Assembly (NCBI RefSeq): GCF_905475395.1
Contig: NC_058341.1
Coordinates: 64,983,501 to 65,047,500 of the forward strand
Origin: Chrysoperla carnea
Lineage: Eukaryota > Arthropoda > Insecta > Neuroptera > Chrysopidae
DNA: 64,000 nucleotides
Direction of reading: 5' to 3'
Every line of letters begins with the position of its first letter. The first letter of the stretch is position 1. A program made the position numbers and the translations under genes. Below the pieces are notes generated by a model. That model saw nothing but the letters and a program-made list of their open reading frames with translations, made no database searches and was not told where the DNA came from. This document shows positions 5,221-63,625 of this stretch, in pieces.

Positions 5221-5578
5221 GCGAATATTCGCGAATGCGAATATTCGTCCCATCACTATGTGAGGCAATGAATCTGACAAGAGTTAAGAACAAACAAAAC
5301 TAATGAAATATTTTGGTTTGTTAAAGAAAGGGTGTATAAAAGGTAAAATTAGTCACAGTTAAACCTTTTTAGAGACTCACTCACTTATTTAATAAACAAA
5401 CTATCAGCAACAGTAATATGCATATTTTTGGAATTCTAATTACTATACATGAGTATTTAAAAAAAGCCCTTGACCTAGACCAGAAGTGCAAGTGTTAAAA
5501 TATGAAACAATGCATGTTTACATTTAATTTTGCTGAAAAATTTTGTTTTCCTTGCTAATGATATAAATTTGAAAGTAA

Positions 5579-39608: not shown

Positions 39609-40646
39609 TATACTGGGTGTTCCAAACCACCCGTCCAGGCTGATTATTCTGAATAGTTTTTAAAAAAAATTGAAACGAAAAAACACGTATCAAATATTTT
39701 TTGAAACTCTATCTAACCATACCAAAAACACCCTCCACCCTCAAATCCTGTTAGGGGTAGGGGGTGTAACTTGAAAAAATCAAATGGAAACCCCTATTTT
39801 TTTCTGCAGATTTGAATTCTTCAGAAGAAAAGACAAACATTTTGTCTAAGAAATTTTTCCCGATTTTCGGTAGATCGCGCTACAATCGACAAAAATCGTT
39901 CTTTTAGATTTGGCATAAGAATTGCGCCGTTCAATGACAAAAATCAAAACGAAAAAGTAAAAATAAAAATAAAAACACAAACACACAGAACCAAAACAAA
40001 AACAAAACAAAAGCAACACAAAAGTTAGAAATTCAACGAAAATAAAAGAGAAGCGAAAATGTCGAATTGCGGTAATTGAGGTAAACCACTAGACAATTGG
40101 GAGGATGCTAAATAAAGCTCTTAGAAAGAATTAGATATGAATCATTTTAGATTTAATTTTTTTTCAGACTTTCCAAAATAAAAAAAAACATTTTTACAAA
40201 AATAATTTTTCTAAATCATAATAAAATATGAAAAACAAAAACAGAATAGTCTTTTCTTCAAAAAAACAAAAACAAAATTGAAAATAACTATTCTCGACTC
40301 AAAAAACTTTTCTCGCCTTCACTTGAACTGCAATTCTAATGCCAAATCTAAAAGAACGATTTTTGTCGATTGTAGCGTGATCTACCGAAAATCGGGAAAA
40401 ATTTCTTAGACAAAATGTTTGTCTTTTCTTCTGAAGAATCCAAATCTGCAGAAAAAAATAGGGGTTTCCATTTGATTTTTTCAAGTTACACCCCCTACCC
40501 CTAACAGGGGTTGAGGGTGGAGGGTGTTTTTGGTATGGTTAGATAGAGTTTCAAAAAATATTTGATGCGTGTTTTTTCGTTTCAATTTTTTTTGAAAACT
40601 ATTCAGAATAATCAGCCTGGACGGGTGGTTTGGAACACCCCGTATA
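39609..40646. repeat. Large foldback element with about 330-bp arms
   Basis: The ends TATACTGGGTGTTCCAAACC and GGTTTGGAACACCCCGTATA are inverted, and the arms match over about 330 bases with few changes (GCGCTACAATCGACAAAAAT with ATTTTTGTCGATTGTAGCG). The interior 39940-40310 is strikingly A-rich on the plus strand. It lies about 630 bases past the fatty acid synthase stop codon. Confidence 0.88.
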
Positions 40647-40751
40647 GTCACAGCAAAAGCATACACATTTCACATATACATCATCATACATTACACTTTC
40701 AATTTTCGATTTTCCATTTTAAACTAATCTACGCTTCGCACTGCTGTGCTA

Positions 40752-40934
40752 TAGGATAAATTAAATTGAATTGAATACCAAAATTAAATATTATGATATA
40801 TCTTTTTTTAAATTATTCAATGTAAGGTATAGCAGTGCTTTGTCTTATACTTAAGACTTACTTCGAATAATTTAGAAAAAAGTATATCATAATAGATATT
40901 TGATTTTGGAATTCAATTCAATTTAATTTATCCT
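40752..40934. repeat. Hairpin MITE
   Basis: GGATAAATTAAATTGAATTG is mirrored by CAATTCAATTTAATTTATCC. The arms are about 55-60 bases with a loop of about 60. Confidence 0.75.
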
Positions 40935-40959
40935 TTTTAGTTATAAACAATACATATAT

Positions 40960-41250
40960 TGTACAGAACATGTCATTAAAAGGGAGAGGGAAATAAAAGA
41001 AGGAGCTGGTATGAAATAAAAAGAATACACCAAAATATTTTTTTTTTTTAAGTAATAGACTGGACAATCATTAATTTTAAATAATTTTATCAAACTGGAA
41101 TAATTAAGGAAAAAGTTTAAGTCAGCCATAGCTGCATACCCTGCCCTTGGTTTCATTTCCCCTGTCCCTTTTAAAGACATATTCTGTACAATGTTTGTAT
41201 AATATGTCATTAAAAGGAATAGGAAAAATCAAAGGAAGGGTGATGCATGC
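40960..41250. repeat. Short dispersed repeats past the synthase stop codon
   Basis: Three related pieces: AATGTCATTAAAAGG-type units at about 40970 and 41203 in direct orientation and one inverted at about 41155 (CCTTTTAAAGACATATTCTG). This is the presumed 3' untranslated region of the synthase. No AATAAA is obvious right after the stop. Confidence 0.45.
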
Positions 41251-41279
41251 AGCTATGAATATCAACTACAACCCTACAC

Positions 41280-41636
41280 TTAAGAAAAGAATTCATTTAC
41301 TAAATTTGGTAATGATACATTTTCTAAAACAGTGTAATGATCTCCTTCTAGTACAGTTACAGGAATCTCTGATGATTCCTTATCCACCAAGGTCGATAAG
41401 TCATAATCTTTTGACGATTCACTAATCACTTGAACAGTGGGTCGAACTAACGCAATCGGAATATTTAATTTAATTTCTTCGGATATTTTGTAATTTAAAA
41501 TTGAATGAAATCGTGCCAATAAACCATTACAAACTATGCGAATATATTTCTCAGAATATAAAGATACAACTTCCGGTTTTTTGGATAACAATAGATCCAC
41601 TCGTGATTTCCAATCAGGCAGAGTTTCGAGTTCATT
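41280..41636 (-). CDS. FAS exon 13: thioesterase end and stop
   Basis: Residues 2256-2373. VTVLEGDHYTVLEN provides the catalytic His2355; the chain ends VNEFFS and TAA. This completes a Ser-Asp-His thioesterase. Confidence 0.95.
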   Translation of the reverse strand, partial: NELETLPDWKSRVDLLLSKKPEVVSLYSEKYIRIVCNGLLARFHSILNYKISEEIKLNIPIALVRPTVQVISESSKDYDLSTLVDKESSEIPVTVLEGDHYTVLENVSLPNLVNEFFS

Positions 41637-44600
41637 CTATAAAAAAAAGTATTTGTTAATCACTAGATCAAGAATATCAATTTTAAAAAGAATTATATAA
41701 TAAATATGAGTCAGTAAATTATTAATTGTGTATATCTTTTGAAGTCGACGCTTATCATATCCTTATGACCTCCGCACATTGCTTCGCCAAAATTTAATTT
41801 AAAATCGAAGTGTATATAAAATTTAATTTAAAATACCAACGTATCCACTTTTGCATTTCATATATGTAATTGTTCGTACACAAATTTTTTTAATACAGCG
41901 GCAGACCGTTGTTCATGTTTTCGCTTGAATTTTATATTTAAGATTAAAAAATTATCTTATATCCGCTCTCAGCTTATTTTAATAATTTCTTCGTCATAAT
42001 ATTCTATTATCACACGATTTACATTCCCCCTTCGAACTTTAACTTTCTGTCTCAACGCTAAAGAGTTTCAAATAAAATATTTTTACCCGTTTGCCCGAAC
42101 TTAATAGTAACTAACACATAAACCAAGTTAATTAAAAGCTTCTTATAAAATAAAATATAATACTAAGTATGCCAAACTCACCAAAATACTTGAAATATCT
42201 TCTGTAGCAAACCACGACAATATCAATGCTATTAACCTTGATTCGATAGCGCTGGCTGGCATTTCTTCTGAAACTGAAAGTTGATTACGAGCTAGTGTTT
42301 TCAGAAATGTTGGCGATCCGTCAATAAATAAACAACGACCTTTATGGCCTAATTTTTCTAATACTATAGAAATTTCTGTTGCCAATATTGATCCAAATGA
42401 GTAGCCAATAATACCATACTCTTCACTTTTCGCTAGTTTGGATTTAATTAGCTGAAATTAAACAGGCTGATATAAATGTAATAGAATAGTCTCAATAAAT
42501 AACTTCGGTTCGTTTTTCATAGTGATATTTTAAATATTACTATTACAATTTTCATATAAATTATCAAAAATTATAGTTTGACAAAATTGGTTCCAATAAA
42601 CGAATTGGTGGAAAACAATTACTGAACTGTAAGAAATAGTTGGAGGTGCAGGACCAAAAATGTATAAAAATAAGATAAAATTAGTTAGTTTTTTGAGTAA
42701 AATAAACGTTGCTTCAAGAAAAGTAGTTGTAAAAATAAGTTTCGAAGACCCAAAAAAAAATTTTAAACTTTAAAGAAACGGAAAACTGCTTTGAAAAATG
42801 TTTTTGCGATTGCACTCAAATTAACCACCCATTAATATTTGGCCATGTGCAAGCAAAACAAGATGGTGGTATAATTTATTAAATAAAAATCTCGTGTCAC
42901 GGTATTTGTGTTTAACTCCTCGGAAAACTTGCCCGATTTTAATGAATTTTATGTTTTACTGAAGAACAAGTTAAACAACATAACAAACAGCAAAATTAAA
43001 TTGAATCAGCGATTGTTAAAGTGTAGGTCAACTGTGGTAACAGCAACAACCTTCGACTATGAATAAACTTTGTATTCATATCTTTCTTAATTACTTTTTC
43101 GCTATGGTTAGTCAACCATACTCTAGAACTTTCTTGAAAACAAATGTAATTTTGAAATACTATAGAATTGTCTAGACAATTCTAGACAATTCTAAAAAGA
43201 AAAGAACAATACCGTTTTATATTACTCAAACAGAGATAGAAAACATATAAAATATATGCAATAAATTACACGTGAATGTTCTAGAATTTGCTAGACTCTA
43301 CGGTAATAATTGACTGTAACTATATAAACGACGCACAGCGCGGCGTGCGATACGGTCAGATAACAATACAGACTCTTCAAGTTAACTACAGTACAATATA
43401 TAAGTTCATTTTAATCAAGTTAACAATCAAAAATAGTGCAAGCTCTTGTGAATCAATTATTGTAGTGAAATTTTTTAAACGTCAATAAAACAAATAGTTT
43501 TTTTTGTGATATAAATTGTTCACTACAAAAGATACAGAAAGTAGTGTATAAAATATTAATCAATATTGCCCGTTTAAAAATCGCTTTTTACTTTTACGGT
43601 TTTTATGTTTTAATAAATTGAGCAAAGAATATAAAATTTTATGTAGGTACACATTTACTTACGGAAACCATTTTTTGTGTTAGAGCATTAATGTTATCAG
43701 TAGTATCCTCAAACGAAGTTTGTAAACCATAACATTGATAATTCAATCTTGAACATAGTGCTTCAAACACTAAACAATTCCCTTCAATTCCAGGAATGAA
43801 GAATAGTGGCATTGATTTCGCTTTATTTTTGATTGATGACAATTTTATCATCGGTTCTATATGTTCATTTTCATCACCAAACGTACGAATAAGCATTTTA
43901 AATATATCTTCCGAGGACATCGACTTTTCTTTTATTGTAGCACCTGATTCAGCATTATCAACCCGTTCATTTTGTAATTCAATTAGTTTTGAGAAACTTA
44001 AATTTCGTATATCTTGTGGTGTTAAGAAAAGCTCAAATTCTCTTTCTAATGTTTGTTTAATTTCAACTGCCATCATTGAATCCATACCGATCTCCGTTAG
44101 TTTCGCATGCTTACTCACTGTTGTGTAATCTCTTATCCCCATAATAGATATAACAGAATCTAAAATACTTCCACCGGCGTTGAATCCATACTTTTTCTCA
44201 GCAACTACCATACTTGCAACAATAGGTGATGATTGTTTCAAGAAAATATCCATAGCATTGAAACAGCTGTTTAAGTTCTGTTGAAGTGTTCCGCCAATTT
44301 CTAATACCTCGTCATTATCTTGCATATCGGCAACAAGACCTACTTCACCAATAGCACCCCATTGTATAGCAAGAGCTGGATAACCACTGGCATGACGTTC
44401 TTCACATATACGTTCCATTACTGAATTTGCCATACCATAATTAGTCTGACCCACATTACCACGTCCGCAGGACACACTTGAGAATACAACAAAATGACGC
44501 AACTCTGGACAAAGTGTACGACTCACTTCATCTAAATATTTTGTACCCAATACTTTCCCACCAAAAGATGTTTGAAAATTTTCAATACTTTGATTTTCGA

Positions 44601-47600
44601 ACAACGCATCTCGTAATAATACGGCTAAGTTGTAAATACCATCAACTGGGCCAAAATGTTTGGCAAATTGCAATATTTCTATGCATCCTTCTTTTGTTAA
44701 AATGTTTGCAGTAGAAATTTGTACGTTAATACCAGCAGAGAGCCATTTTCTAAAAATTCATTTTAGTAAATTTATGAAGCCATTATTCAGGTTTTTGCAT
44801 ATATGTACAGCAATAAACTTTATGAGGTGGTAGGGGGGCAACAAAATCAACTTTTTGAGTCCAAAAATGTAGCTATTAAAATGCTTCGTTTTTGAAATAC
44901 AAAGTGTTAAACTTTGTGGAAACAAACCTTTTCTATTAATAATTATAAAATAATTTTATCTATAAACTAATCAGTTTATTGGACCAGGGACGTACTCAAG
45001 GAGCAATCTTTGAAACTAGTAGCATTGAATCACCTCTAGAAGATTGTCGGTTTGTCTGTTATTTTAATCGCTTATTTTATTATTTTGAACTTTGAGAATT
45101 TTTTACTATTTGGAACTTATTTCAAAGTTGACAATTTTTAGTCCCACTGCTCATCATCTCAAGCAAATCATTAATAATAAAATCCTCCAATCACTTTATG
45201 TATTCATTTGAGGCCAGCAACACTTAAATGTCGCTAACGGATATGAAGCAATACATCACATATTTTTTGGATAAAGTAATAGCCGCTAGATGTTTGCGAA
45301 AATAACATTTCGGAGGTTTATCCTTTTTTCAAAATAGAAGTTCGATAAAAATCTACCTCCTACAGGCTCCTACGGTCAAGCCAAACTCTCGAAAGATTTT
45401 TCCTTAGCCGCAAAATCCCCTCAAAATTCTAAAATTCCAAAGCTAAGACATTCAAGTCTTTCTGGACGATTCGCTTACCATTAAATGCAGCACTTAAAAT
45501 GAATCACTGCCTTGCAAATCGTCAACAAGATCTTCTTTACTCAATGTGCTTCTTAGTAAACAAAAAATGGACAATCTGTCGTTTAATTTACCGAAGGTTC
45601 GTTTTGAATGTGAATTTTCGTACAACGCAATTTACGCTCTAGTGTAAGATTTGAAAGGGACAAAATTATACTGTATAGATTACATTAATTTTGAGAATTA
45701 TAACTTACTGTATTCGAATTGATTGGTATCCCTTTCTTAAACCCTGTCTTGACGAAAGTATTAAATTTCTACAACCTCTCTGAATCAACCAATTTGCTAA
45801 TTCCAATCCAAATCCACCAAGACCGCCGATGATCACAATCGATTTATTTTGCTTTACGTATAACCTATCAATACATTGCATTGAGTTAGTTAATTCGAAA
45901 TTTCAGAAAGAAAATATATTACATACCTTGGAATTGCGGGTACTAATACTGTTTTCTGTGCTTCATTATCACGAATTTTGATCAATACTTTACCAATGTG
46001 TTTGCCAGCACTGAGATATCTAAAAGGTGCTTCTAAATTGTCAATCTCAAACACAGTTCTAGGCAAAGGCTTAATGGCTCCGCCTTGAATGCCTTTCGAT
46101 ATCATTGTACGAATTACTTCTTTCTCCTCGGGTGATGCCTCCATGGTATTATCCAACATGATTCCATGAAACGAAGCACCACGCATAAATACTTCCATTC
46201 CAAGTTTATTATTTTTGGATAAATCAAATTTACCAATTTCCATAAATTTTCCATATTCAGCTAGACACCGAACTGATGCTAGTAGTTTTTCTTCAGCCAG
46301 TGAATTCAACACAAAGTCGACACCTCGACCTTTTGTTTCAATCATAACCATTTGTTCAAATGATGTGTCACGTGAATTGCCAATATGACTTTCTAATCAG
46401 TTTTTAAAAAATTAGAATAATTAAAAAAATTATTTATTTATACGCTAGAAATTACCTTTAATTTGCGGAAACCGTTTTTTAATGAAATCCCGTTTCTCTT
46501 GCGTTCCAACGGTTGTAAATACTTCGCAACCATAATGTAACGCAACATGAATAGCAGCTAAACCAACACCGCCAGTTCCAGAATGAATAAGGACAGAGTG
46601 ACCTTTAGACATTCCAAATTTAATTAGCGATCCATATACAGTCGAATAAACCACAGGAACTGTTGCGGCATCTTCCAAAGTCCAATTATCTGGTACTGGC
46701 CACGTCAAGTTTTCGTCACATTCAACTCGAGTTGCTTGTCCAGCGCGTGGAATTAAACCCATATACCGTTTTCCATCCGGGCTTATTCCGGAAAATTCAC
46801 AACCTTGAACACAGTCTAATGGCAACACACAATCAGGATCAGTTTTAGCTCTATCTATAAAATCACTACTCAATTTTCCTGTAGCTAACATAACATCGCG
46901 AAAATTCATTGCTGAATAACAAATTTCAATAATTCTTCTAGGCTTTGTGGATAGTGGCAATTCTATCCAGGACATGCTCGATAAATCTCCTCGAGTTACG
47001 CAATTAATATAAGCTGTGTCAGTTATTATTTTTGTTTCTAACAATTTCAAATGACGATATCCACCCCAAACACCATTCTTGTATACATTTACAGCCAAAC
47101 CAAGATCTAACTGTTTTTTATAGAATGGATCGTTGATATCGAATCCTGGTGCATTCTTATCATTTATGAACACAGCTTGAATCGAATTACTTATGTACTC
47201 TTTTCGTAAACAGTTAACCAATCCAATTAAGCCACTAATTGGCTCATTTTGTGAATATAAAATTGTGGGTATTTTACTTTTCATTAATTGCTGTAATTGT
47301 TCCATCCAAGGGAATTCGATATCATTTGTAATTTTTATTATTTCTGTAGATTTGTTAATATTTAATTTCTGTTTTTTTCGTAGCATTAATAGTTTATCAT
47401 TTTCAGTAAATAGTTCGCACAATATATCGTAATCAGGTATACTACAAGTTTTTGTTTCCGGATTTTCCCGTGATATTACAAAACTAGCATTATTTTTTGA
47501 AACAGTACCAATGATTGACAATTTCTGTATCAAAGAAAAATAATATTTGTTTTAGAAAAGGATAAAAAGCTTATTTTAAATATGCAAAAAGAACACAACT

Positions 47601-60813: not shown

Positions 60814-62883
60814 AGTTCCATGAACCTGGAACAGCCAAAGTAGCACAACCAGGTAAACAATACGGGGTTAATTAGTACTCGATTATTACTAATTAATTAC
60901 CCAAAAATTGAATTTATTACTCCATTTTTTAAAAAATTAACACTAGTTGTGCTGGCTTCCACCGAAAGCTAGCACAACAGCTTCAAAAAACTTCGTATTG
61001 GTACAAAAAATTAAAAACTCATTTATTACTAATTTATTAACATAAATTTTAATTAATTACTAATTAATTACCGAAAAATTGAATTGATTACTCCATTTAA
61101 AAAAAAAATTAAGACTAGTTGTGCTTTTTGGCTTCGACCGAAAGTTAGCACAAGTGCTTCAAAAAACTCCGTATTGGCATAAAAAATTAGAACTCATTTA
61201 TTACTAATTTATTACCATAAATTTTAATTTATTACTTGTAAAATTCTATAGTAATTAAAATTCTATTTTTCTCGTGAACCTGGAACAACTAGTTGTTTTA
61301 TTATTATTATTTTTTTTTCTTTGAAAATTATGCAAGATGGAAACATTCAGTAATGTTGGCAGGCATACACATAAAGTGACGATGGTTTTATCAAAGATTG
61401 AAGCTGTTGTGAAATCTGATCCCAAATTGGGTGACCTTTGCTAACGCACTTTTTTGTTTGTTTATCGAGCACATCATTCTTGTAACTCGTTAAAATAGAA
61501 ATTATCTTTTCTTTATCAATTGCAGCTTTGCATCCAACACTCATTTTTTAATTGTAATTGAAATGTCGTTCATAATCCAAACAATGAAAAAGCCGTTATG
61601 AGTTAAAAACAACAAATTGGTCTGCAACGCCACGGTGGTAAACAGATAAGTTGATGGGTTGTTCCAGGTTCACAAAGAAAATGAAACAATGTCAAATTAC
61701 TGGAAAATTATACCAGTAATAAATACATATAAATGTGTAGTAATAAATTAGTAATAAATGAGTACTAATTTTTTATACCAATACGAAGTTTTTTGAAGCA
61801 TTCGGTCGAACCAGCACAACTAGTCTTAATTTTTTTTTAAATGGAGTAATAAATTCAATTTTTGGGTAATTAATTAGTAATAATCGAGTACTAATTAACC
61901 CCGTATTGTTTACCTGGTTGTGCAACTTTGGCTGTTTTTTCGGTAATTAATTAGTAATAAATTAAAATTTATGGTAATAAATTAAAATTTATGGTAATAA
62001 ATTAGTAATAAATGAGTTCTAATTTTTTATGCCAATACGGAGTTTTTTGAAGCACTTGTGCTAACTTTCGGTCGAAGCCAGCACAACTAGTCTTAATTTT
62101 TTTTTTTTTAATGGAGTAATAAATTCATTTTTTTCGGTAATTAATTAGTAATAAATTAGTAATTAATGAGTTCTAATTTTATATCCCAATACGAAGTTTT
62201 TTGAAGCTGTTGTGCTAACTTTCGGTCGAAGCCAGCACAACTAGTAATAATTTTTTTTTAAATGGACTAATCAATTCAATTTTTCGGTAATTAATTAGTA
62301 ATAAATTAAAATTTATGGTAATAAATTAGTAATAAATGAGTTCTAATTTTTTATACCAATACGAAGTTTTTGAAGCTGTTGTGCTAACTTTCGGTAGAAG
62401 CCAGCACAACTAGTAATATTTTTTTTTTAAATGGAGTAATCAATTCAATTTTTCGGTAATTAATTAGTAATAAATTAAAATTTATGGTAATAAATTAATA
62501 ACAAATGAGTTTTTAATTTTTTGTACCAATACGAAGTTTTTTGAAGCTGTTGTGCTAGCTTTCGGTGGAAGCCAGCACAACTAGTCTTAATTTTTTTTAA
62601 AATGGAGTAATAAATTCAATTTTTCGGTAATAAATTAGCAATTAATTAAAATTTATGTTAATAAATTAGTAATAAATGAGTTTTTAATTTTTTGTACCAA
62701 TACGAAGTTTTTTGAAGCTGTTGTGCTAGCTTTCGGTGGAAGCCAGCACAACTAATGTTAATTTTTTTAAAATGGAGTAATAAATTCAATTTTTGGGTAA
62801 TTAATTAGTAATAATCGAGTACTAATTAACCCCGTATTGTTTACCTGGTTGTGCTACTTTGGCTGTTCCAGGTTCATGGAACT
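60814..62883. mobile_element. Mutator-like foldback element, 9-bp target duplication
   Basis: The ends AGTTCCATGAACCTGGAAC and GTTCCAGGTTCATGGAACT are inverted, and the exact 9-base direct repeat TCGATATGT flanks them (60805-60813 and 62884-62892). The arms contain tandem units of about 150-175 bases (landmarks GTGCTAACTTTCGGTCGAAG, CCAGCACAACTAGT): two in the left arm and six in the right arm. A short minus-strand frame lies in the centre. Long arms and a 9-bp duplication fit the Mutator superfamily. Confidence 0.75.
61347..61544 (-). CDS. Short open frame in the Mutator-like element
   Basis: 65 residues: it starts MSVGCKAAIDKEKIISIL, contains KCVSKGHPIWDQISQQLQS and ends LYVYACQHY, stop. 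It reads like the N-terminal part of a transposon-encoded protein rather than random AT-rich sequence, but I cannot assign a domain. It sits between inner copies of the terminal motif (GTGAACCTGGAACAACTAG at 61276 and its complement at about 61650). It is probably a truncated remnant. Confidence 0.4.
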   Translation of the reverse strand: MSVGCKAAIDKEKIISILTSYKNDVLDKQTKKCVSKGHPIWDQISQQLQSLIKPSSLYVYACQHY

Positions 62884-63157
62884 TCGATATGTAATGAATT
62901 GATCTATTCATTGCTGTCAGACAATGATACAAATTAATATATTGAATCAGAATGATGTATTTACTCATTGTGGGTTTGACCTTAGCTGTACAGCCGAAAA
63001 ATCAAAGCAATACCTACTGCTGGTAAGGAATATGATTATATACCCGAAATTACATAAAACTAACTCCGCAATAATACACAAAGTTCGAACTAGTAGAAAG
63101 AAGCAGTGATATTCTAGTTGAGATAGGCATATATATACATACAGAAGAGTATGAGTG

Positions 63158-63625
63158 TGTTTCTGAACTAAGAATATGATTCCCACATTACGTAAATAAT
63201 ACGTAAACTTTTGACTTTGATATGACGTCACAATGTGATTAAAATATGAGATCAGTTTTACGTAACAGTATCACCTGTTTCTGAGGTAAGAATATGATTT
63301 TCACATTACGTAAATAATACGTAAACTTTTGACTTTGATATGACGCCACAATGTGATTAAAATATGACATCAGTTTTACGTAACAGTATGACATATTTCT
63401 TAGGTAAGAATATCATTCCCAAATTACGTAAATAATACGTAAACTTATGACTTTGATATGACGTCACAATGTGACTAAAATATGACATCAGTTTCACGTA
63501 ACATTATGACATGTTACTGAGGTAAGAATATGATTCACATATTACGTAAATAAAACGTAAACTTATGACTTTGACAAGACGTCACAATGTGATTAAAATA
63601 TTACATCAGTTTTACGTAACATTAA
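63158..63625 (+). repeat. Tandem repeat, four units of about 117 bp
   Basis: Each unit reads AAGAATATGATT, ACATTACGTAAATAATACG, TTTGATATGACGTCACAATG and CATCAGTTTTACGTAACA. Units start near 63158, 63274, 63392 and 63507. This is the right subterminal zone of the element at 60369-63818. Confidence 0.85.

Follow-up and report, generated by a model that had tools for sequence, protein, structure and literature searches.

An intron of the fatty acid synthase gene (FAS) of Chrysoperla carnea holds, in antisense, what reads as a heat-shock promoter and leader with no chaperone gene behind it, and the question is where such an arrangement came from and whether it could respond to heat. The initial annotation described two exact three-unit heat-shock elements (HSEs), partial units, a TATA box and an A-rich leader, and proposed either a relic of an Hsp70-type gene or the promoter of a heat-inducible non-coding transcript. 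Within the window, that is, the whole 64,000-nucleotide stretch that was analysed, positions 43022-43527 are best read as a Ty3/gypsy solo LTR carrying a heat-shock-type promoter layout (probability about 0.93), and of its identity as an LTR we are nearly certain. The heat-shock motifs are genuine, yet they are parts of this larger unit, the features of which are as follows.

42452-43662, minus strand: FAS intron holding the LTR in antisense, defined by splice signals and the domains of the flanking frames.
43018-43021, no strand: left target-site duplication AAAG, from flank comparison.
43022-43527, plus strand: solo LTR of 506 bp, TGTAG...CTACA, from copies with the same boundaries genome-wide and the LTR pair around gag-pol pieces at locus L046.
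43116-43138, plus strand: distal HSE array (HSE-A); it owes its exact three-unit form, 43126-43138, to a G at 43136 that is private to this copy.
43160-43197, plus strand: middle degenerate HSE array (HSE-B), 2 nt more than in most other copies.
43274-43296, plus strand: proximal five-unit HSE array (HSE-C), GAATGTTCTAGAATTTGCTAGAC, score 18, its first 13 letters unchanged in 24 of 31 copies.
43321-43327, plus strand: TATA box TATATAA, by motif.
43356-43359, plus strand: initiator-like TCAG, with a probable start near 43358.
43358-43505 (ends approximate), plus strand: probable R region, corresponding to the A-rich leader and placed from the TATA box, initiator and AATAAA.
43484-43489, plus strand: AATAAA, LTR polyadenylation signal, each letter present in 100% of the copies covering it.
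43528-43531, no strand: right target-site duplication AAAG, from flank comparison.

Most of the layout first described is borne out by the letters. The three-unit element GAAnnTTCnnGAA is present at 43126 and 43274, the degenerate units of HSE-B lie between these two exact elements, and TATATAA begins 35 bases after position 43286, at about the spacing reported from the nearer element. The absence of chaperone coding sequence after the leader also holds, the plus-strand Met frames of 43353-43658 being only two and one residues long. Antisense placement in the FAS intron is likewise confirmed, by minus-strand splice signals (donor GTAAGT at 43662, acceptor AG at 42452) and by flanking frames that match the KR and PP-binding domains; a Thioesterase match fell below its curated cut-off.

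To place this segment among its relatives, the genome was searched with 43020-43660 as query, which returned at least 53 matches, with 40 of 349 candidates scored. The segment itself has TG...CA termini and a short flanking duplication (AAAG/AAAG), as LTRs have. Among the 30 loci L016-L045, which include the window's own, both LTR ends were resolved in 22; an exact 4-bp target-site duplication flanks 15 of these, three more (L018, L034, L045) share three of the four letters, and four (L033, L035, L036, L043) have none. Three of the loci without a duplication, L033, L035 and L036, adjoin the integrase of the family, and the same ten letters follow L043 as follow L036; the sequence after the LTR at L036, L040 and L043 has a common start, AATT(G/A)GTGAC. 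Among the matches listed, all five places with GAATGTTCTAGAA are copies of one repeat spanning window positions 43022-43527, and at one of them, L012, the copy is interrupted by other sequence. Three loci (L010, L011, L013) were dropped from the copy counts, being the same places as L027, L041 and L045.

L046 is the one locus at which a direct LTR pair was found around gag-pol. Its two LTRs have the same orientation, with starts 4.7 kb apart, and enclose decayed pieces of gag, protease, reverse transcriptase (RT), RNase H and integrase. Pfam RVT_1, rve and Integrase_H2C2 were matched in these pieces, and the protease and RNase H pieces were identified by visual inspection; RVT_1 lies in the upstream piece and rve with Integrase_H2C2 in the downstream one, so that integrase follows RT. 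A gag piece at L040 matches DUF7041, and the rows of L033, L036, L038 and L043 were left out of this internal gag-pol reading. Furthermore, family integrase sequence occurs at 15 places, one of them weak (a 69% piece), and several of these places adjoin LTR copies from the genome search. Dispersed copies with LTR ends and duplications, together with the gag-pol pair at L046, thus identify 43022-43527 as a Ty3/gypsy solo LTR. The LTR pair of L046 differs by a K2P distance of 0.047 over 376 sites, and the nearest-neighbour divergence of the LTR copies is 0.012-0.047. Ten of the 15 integrase places are on contig C6 (38.6 Mb of 559 Mb), possibly a low-recombination chromosome. Three further loci, L047-L049, share only LTR positions 104-373 with the window copy, at 81-84% and with different flanks; they look like a second LTR-like family sharing the U3-R part, as if a promoter module had been exchanged.

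A full-length Ty3/gypsy element would have inserted antisense into the FAS intron, and recombination between its LTRs would then have deleted the interior and left the solo LTR. The leader without coding sequence corresponds to the R region of the LTR, which explains the missing chaperone. A search for structured RNA gave no Rfam match within 40000-47000 of the window.

The proximal array, the TATA box at 43321 and the AATAAA at 43484 are family-wide features. The seven copies in which the 13 letters of HSE-C are not exact differ by one change or gap. The perfect distal HSE at 43126, in contrast, is a variant private to the window copy: of the 29 other copies with letters at position 43136, none has the G and all have A. 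The distance from TATA box to initiator is 32 in all 17 of the 31 copies in which it could be measured, the other 14 having no match to the motif pattern, versus 37 in the window copy. The 31 copies were gathered by similarity or, in the case of L009 and L012, by HSE letters, and because the query itself contained HSEs, their retention among the copies is not independent evidence. In the copy alignment, agreement is 0.986 in the 23-base bin of HSE-C and 0.963 overall; since 4 of the other 21 bins match or exceed this value, no special constraint on HSE-C is evident and no selection on it was seen across the alignment bins. A genome search with the HSE-C pattern gave 180 matches within two mismatches and none with the reversed control pattern. 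Nineteen of these are exact and 19 carry one mismatch; among the 100 matches listed, 62 carry two mismatches, most of which read GTGACAGTTCTAGAATTTGC, as does L047.

The window contains eight three-unit HSEs in two registers, two of them inside the LTR, where 60 Markov simulations give 1.1 on average; the six outside the LTR are at 5223, 7333, 29751, 30252, 46786 and 55316. Three arrays scoring at least 14 within 200 bp were reached in 11 of the 60 simulations, so loose clustering of HSEs says little by itself. The array at 43274 is the sole score-18 array in the window.

For a comparison with authentic heat-shock promoters, one scheme was used throughout, the score being that of the best five-unit HSE array within 250 bp upstream of a TATA box. 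The window LTR scores 18, and a score of at least 17 was found in 32 of 34 LTR copies (31 of the family and three related), the remaining two scoring 16 and 15. Of the 32 PF00012 matches that a genome search returned, the nine at L050-L058 are full-length. Eight of the nine Hsp70 upstream regions (L050-L055, L057, L058, with L050/L051 and L054/L055 as near-identical pairs) likewise have an array of score 17-18 upstream of TATATAA, and L056 scores 11. A further stretch, L059 (score 12), contains the first exon of its own gene and hence no promoter. Among control TATATAA sites, 2 of 118 reach 17; the controls include stretches around other Hsp70-family matches. The array lies 15-206 bases from the TATA box in the Hsp70 upstream regions; that of the LTR ends 24 bases before it and is followed by the initiator and, downstream, AATAAA. 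Degenerate units such as GAC and CTC occur in both. The Hsp70 promoters drive Hsp70 open reading frames, unlike the LTR, and no leader in common was found. From Hsp70-like array scores in the LTR copies, set against the few control sites, we infer an HSF-driven LTR promoter for the family, and responsiveness of the family LTRs to HSF is somewhat better than an even prospect.

Under heat stress, HSF trimers would most likely bind the proximal array HSE-C, and the LTR so bound would start plus-strand RNA near 43358. This RNA would stop some 150 bases downstream, at the poly(A) signal of the LTR; alternatively, it may continue into the intron as readthrough antisense to FAS. In intact elements, the same control would couple retrotransposon transcription to heat stress. 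The heat-inducible transcript of the initial annotation thereby becomes plausible in the form of an LTR promoter. Activity of the window copy itself is rather doubtful, its odds being lowered by a TATA-initiator distance longer than 32.

If active, the LTR would work like heat-activated LTR elements such as ONSEN, the nearest known kind. Heat activates Arabidopsis ONSEN by way of HSFs that bind a heat-responsive element (HRE) in its LTR, according to the available part of PMC3907296, and the corresponding part of PMC5059998 describes repeated gain of HREs in ONSEN-related COPIA families of Brassicaceae. In the sections available, ONSEN/COPIA78 and other heat-responsive COPIA elements have LTRs with clustered nGAAn units, as here, and at least three contiguous HSF units are present in the LTR promoter at this locus. 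ONSEN transcription is coupled to the host heat response, as that of the present family would be if active. ONSEN is, however, a Ty1/copia element of plants for which HSFA2 binding and heat-induced transcripts are reported in those sections; the present family is Ty3/gypsy, lies in an animal genome and is described here from its sequence, and the window copy is a solo LTR. Membership of the ONSEN family proper is ruled out, as integrase follows RT instead of preceding it as in the Ty1/copia order.

Closer in host, though not in arrangement, are insect elements linked to heat stress. For Drosophila melanogaster, the available part of PMC10745035 tabulates predicted HSF sites for copia and gypsy LTRs, and that of PMC9032817 cites heat-induced retrotransposition in Drosophila. 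Read from their letters, the copia and gypsy sites listed there are not contiguous three-unit nGAAn/nTTCn arrays. Among the titles and abstract openings returned by a limited set of search terms, none described contiguous HSE arrays in an LTR retrotransposon of an insect, and the available text of PMC11125864, PMC11431837 and PMC6872716 adds nothing further on this point.

The alternative that survives best is that the solo LTR carries inert or silenced HSE-like units and is ordinary debris with no heat response, a reading we take seriously without favouring it. The case for a heat response is drawn from DNA letters, the conservation of HSE-C is unexceptional, and in A. thaliana, according to the part of PMC5059998 available, all 16 ONSEN fragments or solo LTRs lacked functional HREs and a heat response, which counts against the activity of a solo LTR. 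Against this, the array score is like that of Hsp70 promoters, and the TATA-initiator distance is 32 in each of the 17 measurable copies out of 31.

A more ambitious proposal is co-option of the LTR as an antisense promoter which, once induced by heat, would lower FAS. Its position antisense inside the FAS intron and its heat-promoter layout would fit. However, the LTR copies gave no sign of constraint, the spacing from TATA box to initiator is longer in the window copy, and intronic LTRs that are tolerated are usually antisense anyway. We therefore regard co-option as improbable.

Descent from an Hsp70 gene stripped of its coding sequence is less probable still. The HSE-TATA layout and the spelling of the units do resemble Hsp70 genes of the same genome, and one upstream region gives more than this. 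Comparison with the LTR took in ten stretches from the Hsp70 family, namely the nine Hsp70 upstream regions and L059. Eight of the nine upstream regions align with scores of 25-32, inside the range of their own shuffles; the top of these eight is L052, whose score of 32 is equalled by 3 of 300 shuffles. The upstream region of L057, in contrast, scores 57, where 300 shuffles reach at most 40 and 212 genomic pieces at most 34; of six other LTR copies tried, five match this region at the same position, with scores of 38-44. This alignment, of L057 positions 1102-1227 with LTR positions 134-258 over 128 columns, involves U3 and not the leader, and consists largely of HSE units. Outside these units it scores 30, which none of 177 window pieces reaches (maximum 27); yet 15 of 1000 shuffles do, with ten stretches tried. 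Moreover, a genome search with L057:1081-1330 returned a single candidate, L057 itself, and the LTR-like stretch is absent from the other Hsp70 upstream regions. A common origin of the LTR U3 and the L057 upstream region is suggested at most, and capture of U3 from L057 was dropped as an explanation on account of these shuffles and the single genome candidate.

The leader had been credited with Hsp70-like wording, and intact Hsp70 genes sharing it were accordingly sought in the same genome. None of the nine Hsp70 upstream regions matches the leader, and all 32 PF00012 matches lie outside the window. What had been proposed as a possible gene relic is instead a dispersed repeat, many copies of which have LTR ends and target-site duplications; the duplication and the gag-pol between paired copies rule out an Hsp70 relic as the origin of the locus. 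Equally remote is a DNA transposon, for which the 5-bp inverted repeat TGTAG/CTACA at the ends and the 4-bp duplications would speak, since the copies at L046 bracket gag-pol in direct order and copies adjoin integrase at several places.

Beyond the solo LTR, the window carries tandem arrays at 60885-61236, 62002-62814 and 63150-63621, with periods of about 176, 171 and 118 bp; the units of the first two have a common motif in opposite orientation. Genome-wide, GAAnnTTCnnGAA has 21314 matches (10576 + 10738), versus 5341 (2694 + 2647) for the reversed pattern and about 9,600 expected by scaling the window Markov model (1.1 per 64 kb). The excess is thus 2- to 4-fold depending on the control, about 2 by the Markov model and 4 by the reversed pattern.

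Dense HSE arrays are also borne by an unrelated Helitron-like family ending in CAGCGAAGCGGGTTTAACAGCTAG. Its ends number 302 genome-wide within two mismatches, with none for the control, and a T directly follows 22 of 22 ends. Copies of the family lie at the following places.

L014 (about 933-1370), L015 (about 880-1355), L081-L095, L097, L099 and L100, on contigs C1 and C2: Helitron-like copies.

All 20 sampled copies have exact ends and lie on C1 or C2; each of the 18 usable ones contains 9-34 three-unit HSEs, with a mean of 25 in both registers within 700 bp of the end. Extrapolated to 302 ends, this family would account for roughly 7,500 HSEs, and the LTR family adds far fewer. It resembles a case in Caenorhabditis, where Helitrons carry HSEs and HSF-1 occupancy is shown in the available part of PMC6927752. 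In both animals HSEs are dispersed across the genome by a mobile element; the Caenorhabditis element is a Helitron with demonstrated occupancy, whereas the element in the FAS intron is an LTR promoter read from its letters.

That the Ty3/gypsy LTR and Helitron-like families together spread HSEs by the thousand, mostly through the Helitron-like copies, and that heat could activate these elements as well as genes near them, the FAS intron being one such site, is a tentative proposal that we put at a little short of even. A convincing orphan heat-shock promoter can turn out to be a solo LTR. If the LTR is HSF-responsive, an animal gypsy element would be exploiting the heat response of its host, much as the plant element ONSEN does, and every dispersed LTR would be a potential heat-inducible promoter. 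Such an LTR, taken with the Helitron-like copies and their many HSEs, would allow a direct test, outside Caenorhabditis, of the rewiring of a heat response by mobile elements.
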